A DNA stretch of 64,000 nucleotides, from the NCBI GenBank assembly GCA_903859155.1, contig CAIOLO010000089.1, positions 1 through 64,000 on the forward strand, read 5' to 3'. Positions 2,761 to 8,103 of this stretch are shown piece after piece. Under the pieces are notes generated by a model that was not told the DNA's origin, searched no databases, and saw only the letters and a list, made by a program, of their open reading frames with translations. Both the position numbers and the translations under genes were made by a program. The stretch's first letter is position 1, and each line of letters begins with the position of its first letter. This DNA comes from an uncultured beta proteobacterium. Its GTDB lineage: Bacteria > Pseudomonadota > Gammaproteobacteria > Burkholderiales > SG8-39.

Positions 2761-3051
2761 TCAATGCAATTCCAGCCGGTGCGCGCCATCCTCGGCGGGC
2801 AGGCCGGTATCCGGATCGATCCAGCCGGCAACACCGATTTCATCCTCGGCCTCTTCCAGTGATACGCATGACTCGACCGCGGCCAATTCCAGCGCGGTTC
2901 CGGCATCGATATCGTCCACCACTTCAAGCAGCGACGCGTGCGGGCCGCGCAGGCGCGTCTCGCCATTGAGCCGCCAGTAAAAGCCATCGGCGCGTTCCAG
3001 AACGCTGACGGTCTCGTCCTGGTAGATCGGCTTCATGGATTGTCGTGACAT
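2761..3051 (-). CDS. Small acidic protein of unknown function
   Basis: A 96-residue, strongly acidic protein that I do not recognise. It has no signal peptide or membrane segment. The middle is rich in Asp and Glu (VVDDIDAGTALELAAVES, SLEEAEDEIG). A good ribosome binding site (GGGAGA) lies a few bases before the ATG. It sits 42 bp downstream of fnr and upstream of the Lon-type protease gene on the same strand, so it is probably co-transcribed with both. It might be an adaptor or substrate of the protease or an accessory of the regulator, but nothing in the sequence shows this. Confidence 0.65.
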   Translation of the reverse strand: MSRQSMKPIYQDETVSVLERADGFYWRLNGETRLRGPHASLLEVVDDIDAGTALELAAVESCVSLEEAEDEIGVAGWIDPDTGLPAEDGAHRLELH

Positions 3052-3093: not shown

Positions 3094-3879
3094 TCAGTTG
3101 TAGTGCTGGCCCATGGCGGCTTTGAGGCCATCGGCATCGAGAATTCGGATGTGCTTTTGCTGAACGCTGATCATTTCCTCATCCTGGAATTTGGAAAACG
3201 CGCGGCTGACCGTTTCGAGTTTCAGCCCGAGGTAGCTGCCGATTTCCTCGCGGGTCATGCGCAGGTTGAAATCGCTCTTCGAATAGCCGCGGGCATTGAA
3301 GCGTTGCGACAGATTGAGCAGAAATGCGGCCAGGCGTTCCTCCGCCCGCATGCTCCCGAGCAGCAGCATGACCCCGTGTTCGCGTACGATCTCGCGGCTC
3401 ATAACCTTGTGGAACTGGGTCTGCAGGCCGGGCAGGTCGCGGGTGAGTTCCTGCAGTTTCGCGTAGGGAATAACGCAGACCTCGCTATCCTCCAGGGCTA
3501 CGGCGCTGGTACTGTGTGTGCCGGTGCCGATGCCGTCCATGCCGAGCATTTCTCCCCCCATGTGAAACGCGGTGACCTGTTCGCGTCCGTCATCGAGCAT
3601 CAGCGTAGCTTTGAAAAAGCCGCTGCGCAGCGCGTACAGCGAGATGAAGGGGTCGCCGGCGTGATAAACGGTTTCGCCGCGCTTGAGGCGCCTGCGGGTA
3701 TAGACCAGTTCTTCGGCGCGCGTCGCATCGCTCCCGGAGAGTCCGCAGGGCAGGCACAATTCGCGCAGATTGCAGGAAGCACAGCGGGTCGCCACCTTGG
3801 TCACATTACCCGGCACAGGCGTTCGCGGCGGCATGGCAATTTCTGCACGGGTAGCATGGATTTCGATGGGGGGGGTCAT
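3094..3879 (-). CDS. fnr: FNR-type oxygen-sensing transcription regulator
   Basis: A 261-residue Crp/Fnr protein. Cysteines 33, 36 and 42 (in CASCNLRELC) and Cys135 (SEVCVIP) reproduce the spacing of E. coli FNR Cys20, 23, 29 and 122 with a constant offset of 13, so an oxygen-labile [4Fe-4S] cluster is expected. The cyclic-nucleotide-like fold occupies roughly residues 60-170. The C-terminal helix-turn-helix carries the E-x-x-S-R recognition motif (ETVSR) that in FNR reads TTGAT-N4-ATCAA. Several such boxes occur in this window (before hemN, narK1, the FMN oxidoreductase gene and norC), and this protein is the obvious candidate to bind them. AAGGAG precedes the ATG. The gene lies 20 bp behind the receiver-only regulator gene. 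Confidence 0.93.
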   Translation of the reverse strand: MTPPIEIHATRAEIAMPPRTPVPGNVTKVATRCASCNLRELCLPCGLSGSDATRAEELVYTRRRLKRGETVYHAGDPFISLYALRSGFFKATLMLDDGREQVTAFHMGGEMLGMDGIGTGTHSTSAVALEDSEVCVIPYAKLQELTRDLPGLQTQFHKVMSREIVREHGVMLLLGSMRAEERLAAFLLNLSQRFNARGYSKSDFNLRMTREEIGSYLGLKLETVSRAFSKFQDEEMISVQQKHIRILDADGLKAAMGQHYN

Positions 3880-3899: not shown

Positions 3900-4334
3900 C
3901 TAAGCACAGTGGTGATAGTGGTCTTCGTCAGCCTGCCTTGCTGCGCAGCCGGCGAGAATCGCTTCCTTGACCTTGTCGAATTCGGTGCTTTTGTCCAGCA
4001 ATGAACTGGCACCGGCTTCGGCGAACAGGCGACGGTAATGCGGATCCGGGTAATTGGTGAGTACGACGAATACAATTTTCGGTGCCAGCAGGCGCACTTT
4101 GCGAATGACTTCGATGCCGCTGCCGCCCCGCAGATGGATGTCCAGCACCACGGCATCGGGCTTGCTGGAGAGGATGCCGGCTATGGCCTCTGGCGGGGTC
4201 TCGGCCTGGCCGACCACGTCAATGTTGCCGCCCTCCTCGAGCAGTTTGGCCAGGCGCTCGCCGATGGCCGCTGAATCCTCGGCAATGAATACCGTGATGC
4301 GGTTCGGGTTTTGCAGATGCAGCGCTTGTTCCAT
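3900..4334 (-). CDS. Receiver-only response regulator
   Basis: A 144-residue single-domain protein. It has the CheY-like receiver features: acidic pocket (FIAEDS), phosphoacceptor Asp in VVLDIHL, conserved Thr in FVVLTN and Lys in LLDKS. There is no DNA-binding output domain, and the last 20 residues are a His/Asp-rich tail (ADEDHYHHCA). It is the first gene of the unit that continues into fnr, so it may relay phosphorylation from the nearby kinase to FNR or to another partner; that is inference. Two tandem palindromes lie 60-96 bp upstream of its start codon. Confidence 0.85.
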   Translation of the reverse strand: MEQALHLQNPNRITVFIAEDSAAIGERLAKLLEEGGNIDVVGQAETPPEAIAGILSSKPDAVVLDIHLRGGSGIEVIRKVRLLAPKIVFVVLTNYPDPHYRRLFAEAGASSLLDKSTEFDKVKEAILAGCAARQADEDHYHHCA

Positions 4335-4393
4335 GGCCCGAAGTATGCAAGCCGGCTGCGGGACAAACTATCGGCGCCGGCTGAATCAGCGGG

Positions 4394-4430
4394 TAGGCGG
4401 GCGCCTAAATCCGGGGTAGGAATCGTCCTA
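4394..4430. promoter_or_regulatory. Two tandem TAGG-N6-CCTA palindromes
   Basis: The sequences TAGGCGGGCGCCTA (4394-4407) and TAGGAATCGTCCTA (4417-4430) both fit TAGG-N6-CCTA, with centres 23 bp apart, roughly two helical turns. They lie in the 204-bp gap between the receiver-only regulator gene (leftward, start 4334) and the end of the NarL-type regulator gene. The inverted half-sites with N6 spacing resemble in layout the TGTAAG-N6-CTTACA sites of GacA-type NarL/FixJ regulators. The adjacent NarL-type regulator is therefore a candidate ligand, which is inference. Confidence 0.6.
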
Positions 4431-4538: not shown

Positions 4539-5168
4539 TCAGTCCAGGTTGTTTTCCATGGCGTAGCGGATCAGGTCCGCCTGGTTGGTCATGCCCATCT
4601 TCAGCATCAGCCGCGTCTTATGGGTGCTCACAGTCTTGACCGAGAGGTTCAGCTCAGAGGCAATGTCGGTGATGCTTTTTCCCGCCACCAGCAGGCGCAT
4701 CACCTGAAACTCGCGGTCCGAGAGGGTGCTGTGCAGCGGACCTTCTGCGTTGGGCATCGCCCCCAGGGCGATCTGCTCGGCGACCCCCGGAGTGATGAAG
4801 GCGCCACCCGAGGCAACCTTGCGAATGGCCAGAACCAGCTGGGCCTCGGCGGTTCCCTTGGTAAGGTAACCCGAGGCGCCAGCGCGGATGGCGCGCACAG
4901 CATACTGCTGCTCCTCGTGCATGCTCAGTATCAGGATGCGCAGCTTGGGCTTTTCACTCTTGACCTGGCGGATCAGCTCAATGCCGCTGCGACCGGGCAT
5001 GGACATGTCCAGCAACAGCAAGTCGAACTCCAGTTCCCGTGTTCGGACCAGAACCTCATGGCCGTTGCAGGCTTCGCCCACGACGGCGAAATCCTGGCTG
5101 GCATCGAGCATCTGCTTGAGCCCCTCGCGCACGATGGTGTGATCATCAGCGATAACGATGCGTATCAT
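4539..5168 (-). CDS. NarL/FixJ-family response regulator
   Basis: A 209-residue two-domain regulator. The N-terminal receiver has the acidic pair in IADDHTI, the phosphoacceptor in LLLDMSMPG and Lys in YLTKGT. The C-terminal LuxR-type helix-turn-helix (about residues 145-205) contains LSDREFQVMRLLVAGKS and LNLSVKTVSTHK. Its start codon overlaps the end of the histidine kinase gene by 4 bp, so kinase and regulator form a co-translated pair. Its targets are unknown. Nitrate, oxygen or redox control would suit the neighbourhood. Confidence 0.9.
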   Translation of the reverse strand: MIRIVIADDHTIVREGLKQMLDASQDFAVVGEACNGHEVLVRTRELEFDLLLLDMSMPGRSGIELIRQVKSEKPKLRILILSMHEEQQYAVRAIRAGASGYLTKGTAEAQLVLAIRKVASGGAFITPGVAEQIALGAMPNAEGPLHSTLSDREFQVMRLLVAGKSITDIASELNLSVKTVSTHKTRLMLKMGMTNQADLIRYAMENNLD

Positions 5169-6463
5169 ATGGCTTCACCTGGCGTTTCCAGAGGGATGCG
5201 CACTGCAACGACCGTGCCCTTGCCGGCGTTGCTCTGAACGCTGACCTCGCCGTTGAGCAGGTAGACCCGCTCACGCATGCCAATCAACCCGAATGACCCG
5301 CTTGCCCGGGTTTCCCCTGCGGAAAATCCGCGGCCGTTGTCGCTCACCGTGAGGACCAGTGCGCGTCCTTCGGTCTCAAGCGTCACCTCCACCTGGGTTG
5401 CCGCGGCATGCCGCGCGACATTGGTCAACGATTCCTGCAGGATGCGAAAAATCGCGGTGGCATGAGCTCCAGAGGTCTGAAGATCCGGCGATCCGAACGC
5501 CAGTTCGCAGGATATGCCGCTGCGGCGCTGGAAGTCCTGCACCAGCCACTCCACCGCAGGCGCGAGGCCCAGGTCATCGAGCATCATCGGGCGCAGATCG
5601 GCGGATATGCGCCGGGTCGCCGCAACGGTCTGGTCCAGCAGCAGTTGCATCGACGCGAGCTTCTTCTCCAGGTCGGCCGAGCCGGCGGGCAGCCTCTCGC
5701 GCAGCCAGGCGGCGTCCATCTTGAGTGCGGTGAGTGCCCCGCCCAGTTCGTCGTGCAGTTCGCGTGCGACCCGGCTTTTTTCCTGTTCCCGGACCTTTTG
5801 CGAAACCGAGGCCATCTCGCGGAGCTCTTCGCGCGAGTGGCGCAGCGCCTGCTCCGTGCGCACCCGCTGGCTGATGTCCCTGAGGATGGCCGTGAAGATG
5901 AGTTCGCCGGGTCTGCCCGATTTCGAAATCGATGCTTCCACCGGAAACTCCTCGCCATCGGCGCGCAGGCCGGTCAGCACCGAATGGTCTCCCATGCGGC
6001 GTGATGTGGTGCCGGTTGCGCCGAAATGCGCAACGTGCGCACGATGCGCCTGGCGCAGTCGCGCCGGCAGCAGCATGTCGAGCGGCTGGCCCAGCACCTG
6101 CTCGCGCGGCCGCTGAAAAATCTTTTCCGCAGCCTGGTTGAACAGCACCACCTGTTGCCGTTCATCCACGGTGATGACCGCGTCCATCGCCCCTTCCAGC
6201 ACAGTGCTCACTTGTACCTCGGCGCGGCGCAGGGCGCGCCGGGCGAGGATTTCGTAATGTATCAGTACTGCCGCCGTCGTCAATACAACGACGCCGGCAA
6301 ACGCGCTGGTCAACAGCATCTGCTGCGGATACCAGTTCATCACCTCGGCCAGGGCGGCAAGCAGCATGGTCGCCGCCGCCACCACCAGCACCGGGCCGAG
6401 GAAGATGAGCAGCACGCTGCGGTTTTGCTGCGTGGCCGATTGCGAATGGTCAAATACCGGCAT
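5165..6463 (-). CDS. Membrane PAS sensor histidine kinase
   Basis: A 432-residue kinase. Two membrane segments near residues 18-68 are separated by only a short loop. A PAS domain follows (VSTVLEGAMDAVITVDE onward), then a HisKA_3 dimerisation domain with the phospho-accepting His in RELHDELGGALTALKMD, and a HATPase domain with DNGRGF and GSFGLIGMRERV. This is the NarX/DegS/NreB-type kinase class. It lacks a large periplasmic nitrate-binding domain, so sensing is probably through the cytoplasmic PAS domain or the membrane. It pairs with the NarL-type regulator that overlaps its 3' end. The FNR box at 6501-6514 is 38 bp before its start codon. Confidence 0.9.
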   Translation of the reverse strand: MPVFDHSQSATQQNRSVLLIFLGPVLVVAAATMLLAALAEVMNWYPQQMLLTSAFAGVVVLTTAAVLIHYEILARRALRRAEVQVSTVLEGAMDAVITVDERQQVVLFNQAAEKIFQRPREQVLGQPLDMLLPARLRQAHRAHVAHFGATGTTSRRMGDHSVLTGLRADGEEFPVEASISKSGRPGELIFTAILRDISQRVRTEQALRHSREELREMASVSQKVREQEKSRVARELHDELGGALTALKMDAAWLRERLPAGSADLEKKLASMQLLLDQTVAATRRISADLRPMMLDDLGLAPAVEWLVQDFQRRSGISCELAFGSPDLQTSGAHATAIFRILQESLTNVARHAAATQVEVTLETEGRALVLTVSDNGRGFSAGETRASGSFGLIGMRERVYLLNGEVSVQSNAGKGTVVAVRIPLETPGEAI

Positions 6464-6514: not shown

Positions 6515-6711
6515 TTGGTGCCGACATGCGGCGGCGCACAGTAACAGGCGAACTTGGCAGGAATTTGGGCCGCATCGCGCGACTGTGCAGCCGACCCGTG
6601 CGGGGGAAGGGCAAATCAGCCATTTGTGCCATTTGAGATAAAAACATTGGTCAACGGTTGTGGAAAAGTTTTGGTTTCTATGACCGTCATTGCACGCAAT
6701 CGCGTTTGAGC

Positions 6712-8103
6712 ATGGATATGTATACAAATCTCGTCATAGACGCAGACCTGATCCGCAAATACGGCGGCAACGGCCCGCGCTATACCTCCTATCCCACCGC
6801 CGATCGATTTGTCGAGGCTTTTGACGCCGATGTCTATCGCCACTGGTTGCGCAATAGAAATGTCGGTGGTATCTCCCGTCCGCTTTCATTATACGTACAC
6901 CTGCCATTCTGCGGGACGGTCTGCTATTACTGTGCGTGCAACAAGATCGTCACCGGTGACCGCAGCCGTTCTGCGCCCTACATCAGCTATCTGGCCCGGG
7001 AGGTTGAGCTCCTGTGCACGGAGCTGGGCGAGGACCGCGCCGCCAGCCAGGTGCATTTTGGGGGAGGCACGCCGACTTTTCTTCCGGACAACGAGTTGCG
7101 CGAGCTGATGCGCGTTCTCGGTTCGGGATTCAAGCTGAATCCCGCCGGTGAATACGCCATCGAGATCGACCCGCGCGGCGTGGGCGAGGAGCGGGTCGCG
7201 TTGCTTGCGGAACTGGGCTTTAACCGCATGAGCCTGGGCGTGCAGGATTTCGACCCGGTGGTGCAGCGCGCGGTCAACCGCATCCAGACGATTGAGCAGA
7301 CGCTGGAGACCACGCTTGCGGCGCGTCGCCACGGCTTCCGCTCCATCAATTACGACCTCATCTACGGATTGCCGCGCCAGACTCTGGAAGGGTTCTCGCG
7401 CACCCTCGATCTGGTGTGTGAAGCCGCGCCGGATCGCATTGCGCTGTATTCCTACGCGCACCTGCCCGCCGTCTTCATGCCGCAGCGGCGAATCGCGGCG
7501 GCCGATCTGCCGACCCCGGAGGTGAAACTGCAGCTGATGACCCAGGCGATCGCGAAATTCAGCGCCGCCGGCTACGTCTATATCGGCATGGATCATTTCG
7601 CCAGGCCCGATGACGACCTTGCGCTGGCGCAGCGGCAGGGACGGCTGACGCGGAATTTCCAGGGATATTCAAGTGCCGGCGATGCGGACACCCTGGCGAT
7701 CGGCGTATCGGCCATAAGCAATGTCGGGCCCACCTACAGCCAGAACTACAAGGAACTCGACGATTACGCCGCCCGCCTGGATGACGGCGTGCTGCCGGTG
7801 CTGCGCGGCATAGAGCTGAGCGCAGATGACCTTGCGCGCAGTGCGGTCATACAGTCGCTCGCCTGCCACTTCCGCGTCTCCAAAGAATCCATTTCTATCG
7901 CGCACCTGATCGATTTCGACAGTTATTTCACCCACGAGATGAGCCATCTTGCGCTGCTGCGCGACGATGGCCTGGTGGATATAGACGACGAGTGGATCAC
8001 GGTGACTCCCTCGGGCCGCCTGCTGGTGCGGGCTGTCTGCATGGTGTTCGACCGTTATCTCAGCCAGGGCCAGGCGCGCGCGCAATATTCGCGCGTGCTA
8101 TGA
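6712..8103 (+). CDS. hemN: Oxygen-independent coproporphyrinogen III dehydrogenase
   Basis: Radical-SAM enzyme that oxidatively decarboxylates coproporphyrinogen III to protoporphyrinogen IX without oxygen. This supplies haem for the cytochromes encoded further along. From MDMYTN the protein has 463 residues, the usual HemN length. The radical-SAM cluster motif C-x3-C-x2-C is CGTVCYYC (Cys67, 71 and 74), followed by the SAM-binding FGGGTPTF. The typical N-terminal GPRYTSYPTA is present. The ORF extends upstream to 6658, but the extra residues do not look like HemN. The stop codon overlaps the ATG of the next gene, so the two are translationally coupled. Confidence 0.93.
   Translation: MDMYTNLVIDADLIRKYGGNGPRYTSYPTADRFVEAFDADVYRHWLRNRNVGGISRPLSLYVHLPFCGTVCYYCACNKIVTGDRSRSAPYISYLAREVELLCTELGEDRAASQVHFGGGTPTFLPDNELRELMRVLGSGFKLNPAGEYAIEIDPRGVGEERVALLAELGFNRMSLGVQDFDPVVQRAVNRIQTIEQTLETTLAARRHGFRSINYDLIYGLPRQTLEGFSRTLDLVCEAAPDRIALYSYAHLPAVFMPQRRIAAADLPTPEVKLQLMTQAIAKFSAAGYVYIGMDHFARPDDDLALAQRQGRLTRNFQGYSSAGDADTLAIGVSAISNVGPTYSQNYKELDDYAARLDDGVLPVLRGIELSADDLARSAVIQSLACHFRVSKESISIAHLIDFDSYFTHEMSHLALLRDDGLVDIDDEWITVTPSGRLLVRAVCMVFDRYLSQGQARAQYSRVL

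Follow-up and report, generated by a model that had tools for sequence, protein, structure and literature searches.

A conserved palindrome array upstream of a receiver–fnr operon in Betaproteobacteria, a candidate operator for the adjacent NarL-type regulator

To our knowledge, little is established about the regulation of fnr itself in Betaproteobacteria. The classical case of two-component control of a CRP/FNR-family gene is the alphaproteobacterial FixLJ–FixK system, where FixJ acts on fixK and FixK controls hemN and fixLJ (PMC4999443). Two overlapping regions of the fixK promoter, from -69 to -31, are protected by FixJ (PMC4999443, PMC7078487), and a receiver-only protein, FixT, inhibits the kinase FixL (PMC7078487). 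Other described systems share some of these elements. In Staphylococcus, oxygen responsiveness is conferred on NreBC by the kinase NreB, which senses via an Fe–S cluster (PMC8139620). The UvrY/SirA/GacA regulators recognize the box TGTAAG-N6-CTTACA (PMC3171408). Herbaspirillum seropedicae possesses three Fnr proteins and hemN is among the targets of their network; the paper describing them mentions no two-component control of fnr (PMC5934665).

The locus and its relation to described systems

The window, that is, the whole stretch of 64,000 nucleotides of an uncultured beta proteobacterium analysed here, carries on its minus strand, in this order, genes for a sensor kinase and a NarL-type regulator, a 204-bp gap, a receiver-only gene and fnr, with hemN divergent from the group (Table 1). 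The Fnr protein passes the PRK11161 model (236.5 bits, cut-off 228) and contains the ligand cysteines 33, 36, 42 and 135. The regulator scores below every NCBIfam cut-off; its nearest families are UvrY/SirA/GacA (174.7 bits, cut-off 280), MctR and NarL (125.9 bits, cut-off 250), its FixJ score is 99.7 bits (cut-off 255), and its best relatives of solved structure are VraR and NarL. The kinase has a HisKA_3 rather than a HisKA core and reaches 67.9 bits with the FixL model, far from the cut-off of 850. Its PAS domain matches 14 PDB entries (E 1.7e-15 for the best), almost exclusively FixL or DosP haem domains, and His140, which aligns with the haem-ligand histidine, is invariant in the nine orthologs compared; the distal arginine of FixL is not conserved, so haem binding is putative. 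The kinase would sense oxygen or redox state, probably through this PAS domain. Its sole cysteine, Cys319, does not conform to the Fe–S-cysteine pattern of the NreB PAS domain. Caulobacter FixT contains a four-cysteine motif, and no cluster of this type was seen in the receiver-only protein sequence of the window.

Table 1. Coordinates of genes and sequence elements at the receiver–fnr locus of the window
Feature	Coordinates	Strand	Remarks
hemN, oxygen-independent coproporphyrinogen III oxidase	6658..8103	+	TIGR00538 above cut-off; divergent neighbour
FNR-type box, TTGACCCAGATCAA	6501..6514	+	Kinase/hemN gap
Membrane-anchored sensor kinase	5165..6463	-	Two hydrophobic N-terminal segments, PAS, HisKA_3 and HATPase
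NarL-type response regulator	4539..5168	-	Receiver and GerE/LuxR HTH; proposed binder
Distal palindrome, TAGGACGATTCCTA	4417..4430	-	GTAGGA-N4-TCCTAC; about -88 from inferred transcription start; conserved, strong site
Middle palindrome, TAGGCGCCCGCCTA	4394..4407	-	23 bp from distal palindrome
Proximal element, TCAGCCGGCGCCGA	4371..4384	-	TCAG-CCGGCG-CCGA; consensus A[T/A]TCAGC-N4-GC[C/T]GATA; from comparison of relatives
-10-like hexamer, CATACT	4342..4347	-	37 bp from start of proximal element; found by comparison
Receiver-only response regulator, 144 aa	3900..4334	-	Pfam Response_reg; phosphorylatable Asp65 kept; first gene of proposed target operon
fnr	3094..3879	-	NCBIfam Fnr subfamily above cut-off; starts 20 bp past receiver gene; second gene of operon

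The arrangement resembles FixLJ–FixK (PMC4999443, PMC7078487) in that a PAS kinase and a NarL/FixJ-type regulator would act on a CRP/FNR-family gene at its promoter and in that a receiver-only protein, as FixT there, belongs to the circuit. The parts are different, however: the kinase is built on a HisKA_3 core, the regulator falls closer to UvrY/GacA, NarL and VraR, the proposed target is a true four-cysteine Fnr, the receiver gene lies inside the target operon, and the site is TAGGA-N4-TCCTA instead of the FixJ site TAAGTAATTTCCCTTA. If the circuit proposed below is correct, other kinase and regulator parts have arrived at the FixLJ–FixK logic, in which the amount of an FNR-family regulator is governed by a two-component system and a receiver-only protein takes part.

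Among described binding sites, the GacA box is the nearest, since the element found here, TGTAGG-N6-CCTACA, has identical spacing and geometry and almost the same half-site. It nevertheless differs by one base per half-site, the regulator falls below the family cut-off, and GacA-type targets are small RNAs. NreBC is similar in having a NarL-type partner, NreC, which binds a GC-rich palindrome (PMC8139620), but the kinase described here has a single cysteine and the targets of NreC are genes of nitrate and nitrite reduction. The NarXL and NarQP systems of Gammaproteobacteria likewise combine a HisKA_3 kinase with a NarL-type regulator in anaerobic respiration; here, in contrast, the proteins score below the NarL, NarX and NarQ cut-offs, the sensor is a PAS domain and the proposed action is on fnr itself. 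With the H. seropedicae Fnr network the locus shares its betaproteobacterial setting and hemN, here a probable target.

The original prediction, made from the window alone, took two-component control of the FNR level to be a link not known to be described. The proposed circuit itself is supported, but the claim to novelty has to be toned down, since this kind of link is already classical in FixLJ–FixK (PMC4999443). A literature search, conducted largely outside subscription papers, returned no description of this operator, of the promoter array or of the betaproteobacterial pair, nor of any regulator of the receiver–fnr operon.

Two minor features of the window may be mentioned here. A minus-strand open frame of 96 aa (2761-3051) directly behind fnr matches no Pfam or NCBIfam family, and at the window start (1-135) a segment about 60 bp long (ccaaaagcttgccgcgctgcttctggcagccggcgcgagatttatgcgacggcggtttcat) is tandemly repeated.

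The palindrome array and its conservation

TAGG-N6-CCTA matches the window exactly twice, at 4394-4407 (TAGGCGGGCGCCTA) and at 4417-4430 (TAGGAATCGTCCTA), with 23 bp from centre to centre. Dinucleotide shuffles of the window yield 0.07 matches on average, and at least two were reached in one of 100 shuffles. The genome as a whole (5.26 Mb, 172 contigs) contains five such sites and 128 matches to the reversed-letter control; two of the remaining three sites lie within long open frames and the third is without conserved context. Both palindromes of the window fall in the gap between the regulator gene (ending at 4539) and the receiver-only gene (starting at 4334), 60-97 bp 5' of the receiver start codon, on the minus-strand promoter. 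The prediction of two sites of identical design with centres 23 bp apart thus holds for their existence and spacing, but not for their equality: the pair shares just the outer tetramers, and both the complete TAGGA-N4-TCCTA and conservation are confined to the distal site. Rather than an equal pair in tandem, the array consists of one strong, conserved site accompanied by weaker ones, including a third, proximal member that had been overlooked.

Conservation was assessed from orthologs of the regulator, collected independently of the motif from genomes of relatives and from named genomes, the latter almost all betaproteobacterial. Once duplicates had been discarded, a same-strand receiver or fnr gene lay downstream at 72 loci, and the scan covered at most 400 bp ahead of it. 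Exact TAGGA-N4-TCCTA was present in 58 of these 72 regions, with 0.11 expected from dinucleotide shuffles, and each of nine control palindromes, alike in form but with rearranged letters, occurred in 0-1 of 72 regions; the sampled loci are kin, and such counts overstate independence. Most loci lacking an exact match show a one-mismatch site in the same place. With one mismatch allowed, the motif was found in 78 of 82 regions as against 1-11 for the control patterns, in a set enlarged by ten hand-added regions, most of them chosen because the site was present. The palindrome is therefore kept in relatives upstream of orthologous receiver–fnr loci, and the original prediction, which a lack of conservation in relatives would have refuted, passed this check. 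Across the Betaproteobacteria the palindrome is found ahead of receiver–fnr or fnr genes, in most cases immediately after the orthologous gene for the NarL-type regulator. That the palindromes arose by chance has nothing in its favour beyond the shortness of the motif; contradicted by rarity in the window and genome and by this conservation, it is an explanation we consider extremely improbable.

A sister species within the genus has an identical distal site and an almost unchanged -42 element, whereas hardly any alignment is possible upstream of the array; of the middle site it retains TAG and CCTA, the remainder being changed. A count matrix of the palindrome reads (G)TAGGA-N4-TCCTA(C) with a centre leaning to A/T. 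At the position of the middle site, +20 to +23 from the strong palindrome, the promoters of relatives mostly show a weak or degenerate TAGG-like peak or a half-site TCCTAC. The exact tandem key TAGGN6CCTA-N9-TAGGN6CCTA was present in this genome alone among 61 searched, so that the perfect tandem, though not the degenerate one, is peculiar to it.

A strict sigma-70 scan of the promoter returned no consensus promoter, and the -10-like hexamer emerged only by comparison. The distance from TCAG of the proximal element (general form TCAG-N6-CYGA, 23 bp past the middle palindrome) to this hexamer is 37 bp in 47 of 50 spacings, which places the centre of the element near -42. Site starts in the window are 0, 23 and 46 for the distal, middle and proximal members. 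Across relatives, the distance from the strong palindrome to the proximal element is 23 bp in 6 regions, 42-46 bp in 38 and 65-67 bp in 8, with two values elsewhere. Given these quantised distances and the 23-bp register, we interpret the array as a series of dimer sites spaced by two helical turns, with strong binding at the distal end and weak binding close to RNA polymerase. Since only about seven bases separate the hexamer from the receiver start codon in the window (4335-4347) and in near relatives, the receiver–fnr mRNA may be leaderless.

The proximal element is open to another reading, in which the regulator binds the strong palindrome while TCAG-N6-CYGA at -42 serves a second factor, the promoter integrating two signals. 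The half-site TCAGC is indeed unlike TAGGA, yet itself strongly conserved, and in Undibacterium promoters an FNR-box-like sequence overlaps the element. We nonetheless regard this reading as rather unlikely, for the element retains the 4-N6-4 geometry in register with the palindromes. Moreover, in seven Comamonadaceae-type genomes a paralogous regulator (46-48% identical) adjoins a second receiver-only gene preceded by the same palindrome, which in six of the seven cases starts 37 bp before a CANANT hexamer and there occupies the -42 position held elsewhere by the proximal element.

The receiver–fnr target, the candidate regulator and the proposed circuit

Where regulator and receiver genes lie apart, the palindrome follows the receiver. 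Three loci have 0.5-1.7 kb between the two genes, and the palindrome is still about 100 bp before the receiver. Twelve genomes with the regulator gene apart from receiver–fnr were searched whole: the site precedes the receiver or fnr in eight of them (two judged by eye at contig ends), 5-20 kb from the regulator or on another contig, and no exact site was found before receiver–fnr in the other four. In one genome, found via the motif itself, the palindrome lies in a hemN–fnr gap. Because it stays with receiver–fnr when the regulator is elsewhere, the motif is assigned to this target rather than to the 3' end of the regulator gene. This bears directly on the possibility that the inverted repeats are RNA hairpins, which would terminate or help process the kinase/regulator transcript at its 3' end. 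The transcript can form two small hairpins, but their folding is unremarkable (z = -1.6) and the palindromes lack a terminator-like T run; together with the tracking of the receiver, this led us to reject the hairpin reading, which is very improbable.

The adjacent regulator is the best candidate for the protein that binds the palindromes. The original prediction had named a dimeric NarL/FixJ-type regulator encoded next door, and this identification gains support from tandem, phased sites that fit such an activator and from a motif that adjoins the orthologous regulator gene. Of 200 order-wide genomes, 26 encode a close ortholog (E no higher than 1e-90, a cut-off set after the list had been viewed); a TAGGAN4TCCTA site is present in 22 of these, compared with 50 of the 174 others (p = 7e-8). 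The Comamonadaceae-type paralogous regulator/receiver pair with its palindrome likewise links the motif to this regulator family, and the matching geometry of the GacA box agrees with a binder whose nearest NCBIfam family is UvrY/SirA/GacA. The operator might be real and yet be bound by another LuxR/NarL-type regulator, such as a paralog; genomes hold several NarL-type paralogs, and the Comamonadaceae-type paralog adjoins the same motif. Since at most loci the same ortholog lies directly beside the motif, and close orthologs tend to be present in the genomes that have sites, this alternative appears improbable.

Genome comparison shows that the array exists, is rare, conserved and regularly spaced, and is linked to the target operon; the identity of the binding protein, its activating role, the signal sensed by the kinase and the feedback are inferred. 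We consider it probable that the array is the operator of receiver–fnr, at which the adjacent NarL-type regulator, phosphorylated under an oxygen- or redox-responsive kinase, binds and activates, with possible feedback from Fnr and the receiver. An oxygen or redox signal would act on the kinase, probably through its haem PAS domain, to yield the phosphorylated regulator. Regulator dimers would bind the strong distal palindrome and then, cooperatively and in phase, the weaker sites down to about -42, where the regulator would activate sigma-70 RNA polymerase on the receiver–fnr operon. The kinase/regulator pair would thereby set the amount of Fnr and of the receiver-only protein. TTGA-N6-TCAA is found in the same kinase/hemN gap at nine of nine further related loci, and this conserved FNR-type box suggests feedback by Fnr, which probably acts on hemN and possibly on the kinase/regulator operon. 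The receiver-only protein may in turn exert feedback on the kinase, by analogy with FixT and FixL. A tentative extension, possible rather than probable in our estimate, is that these parts constitute a betaproteobacterial two-layer oxygen switch independent of FixLJ–FixK, comprising a haem-PAS HisKA_3 kinase with a GacA/NarL-like regulator, a leaderless receiver–fnr transcript, a phased dimer array, Fnr feedback and a FixT-like receiver brake.

For the control of fnr in Betaproteobacteria, these results supply a defined operator together with candidates for the regulator and the sensor. They are common to Massilia, Janthinobacterium, Duganella, Undibacterium, Polaromonas, Ramlibacter, Azoarcus and others, from soil, groundwater and plant-associated habitats. 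Several of these genera are culturable, so the proposed circuit is open to immediate testing.

Further occurrences of the palindrome

The fixK gene is the only conserved target of FixJ. The composite promoter, searched in the window's own genome with up to three mismatches, occurs once and reveals no second target; because of this single occurrence, receiver–fnr may be the only regulon target here, as fixK is for FixJ. Order-wide matches to TAGGAN4TCCTA away from the regulator were considered as targets and set aside, as they mostly look like chance: 29% of genomes lacking a close ortholog hold such a site, and many sites lie in open frames.

In five Massilia-type genomes, TGTAGGA-N4-TCCTACA is located before another receiver-like gene near hemA, in a gap where this gene is divergent from one for a small basic protein. 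Elsewhere, the palindrome stands 23 bp before CTGATA or CCGATA upstream of a cytochrome c gene in one genome and of large lipoprotein or cytochrome-like genes in two others. A CANANT-type hexamer follows at the same distance as in the receiver promoters, the spacings having been read by eye, and these three genes are possible further targets.
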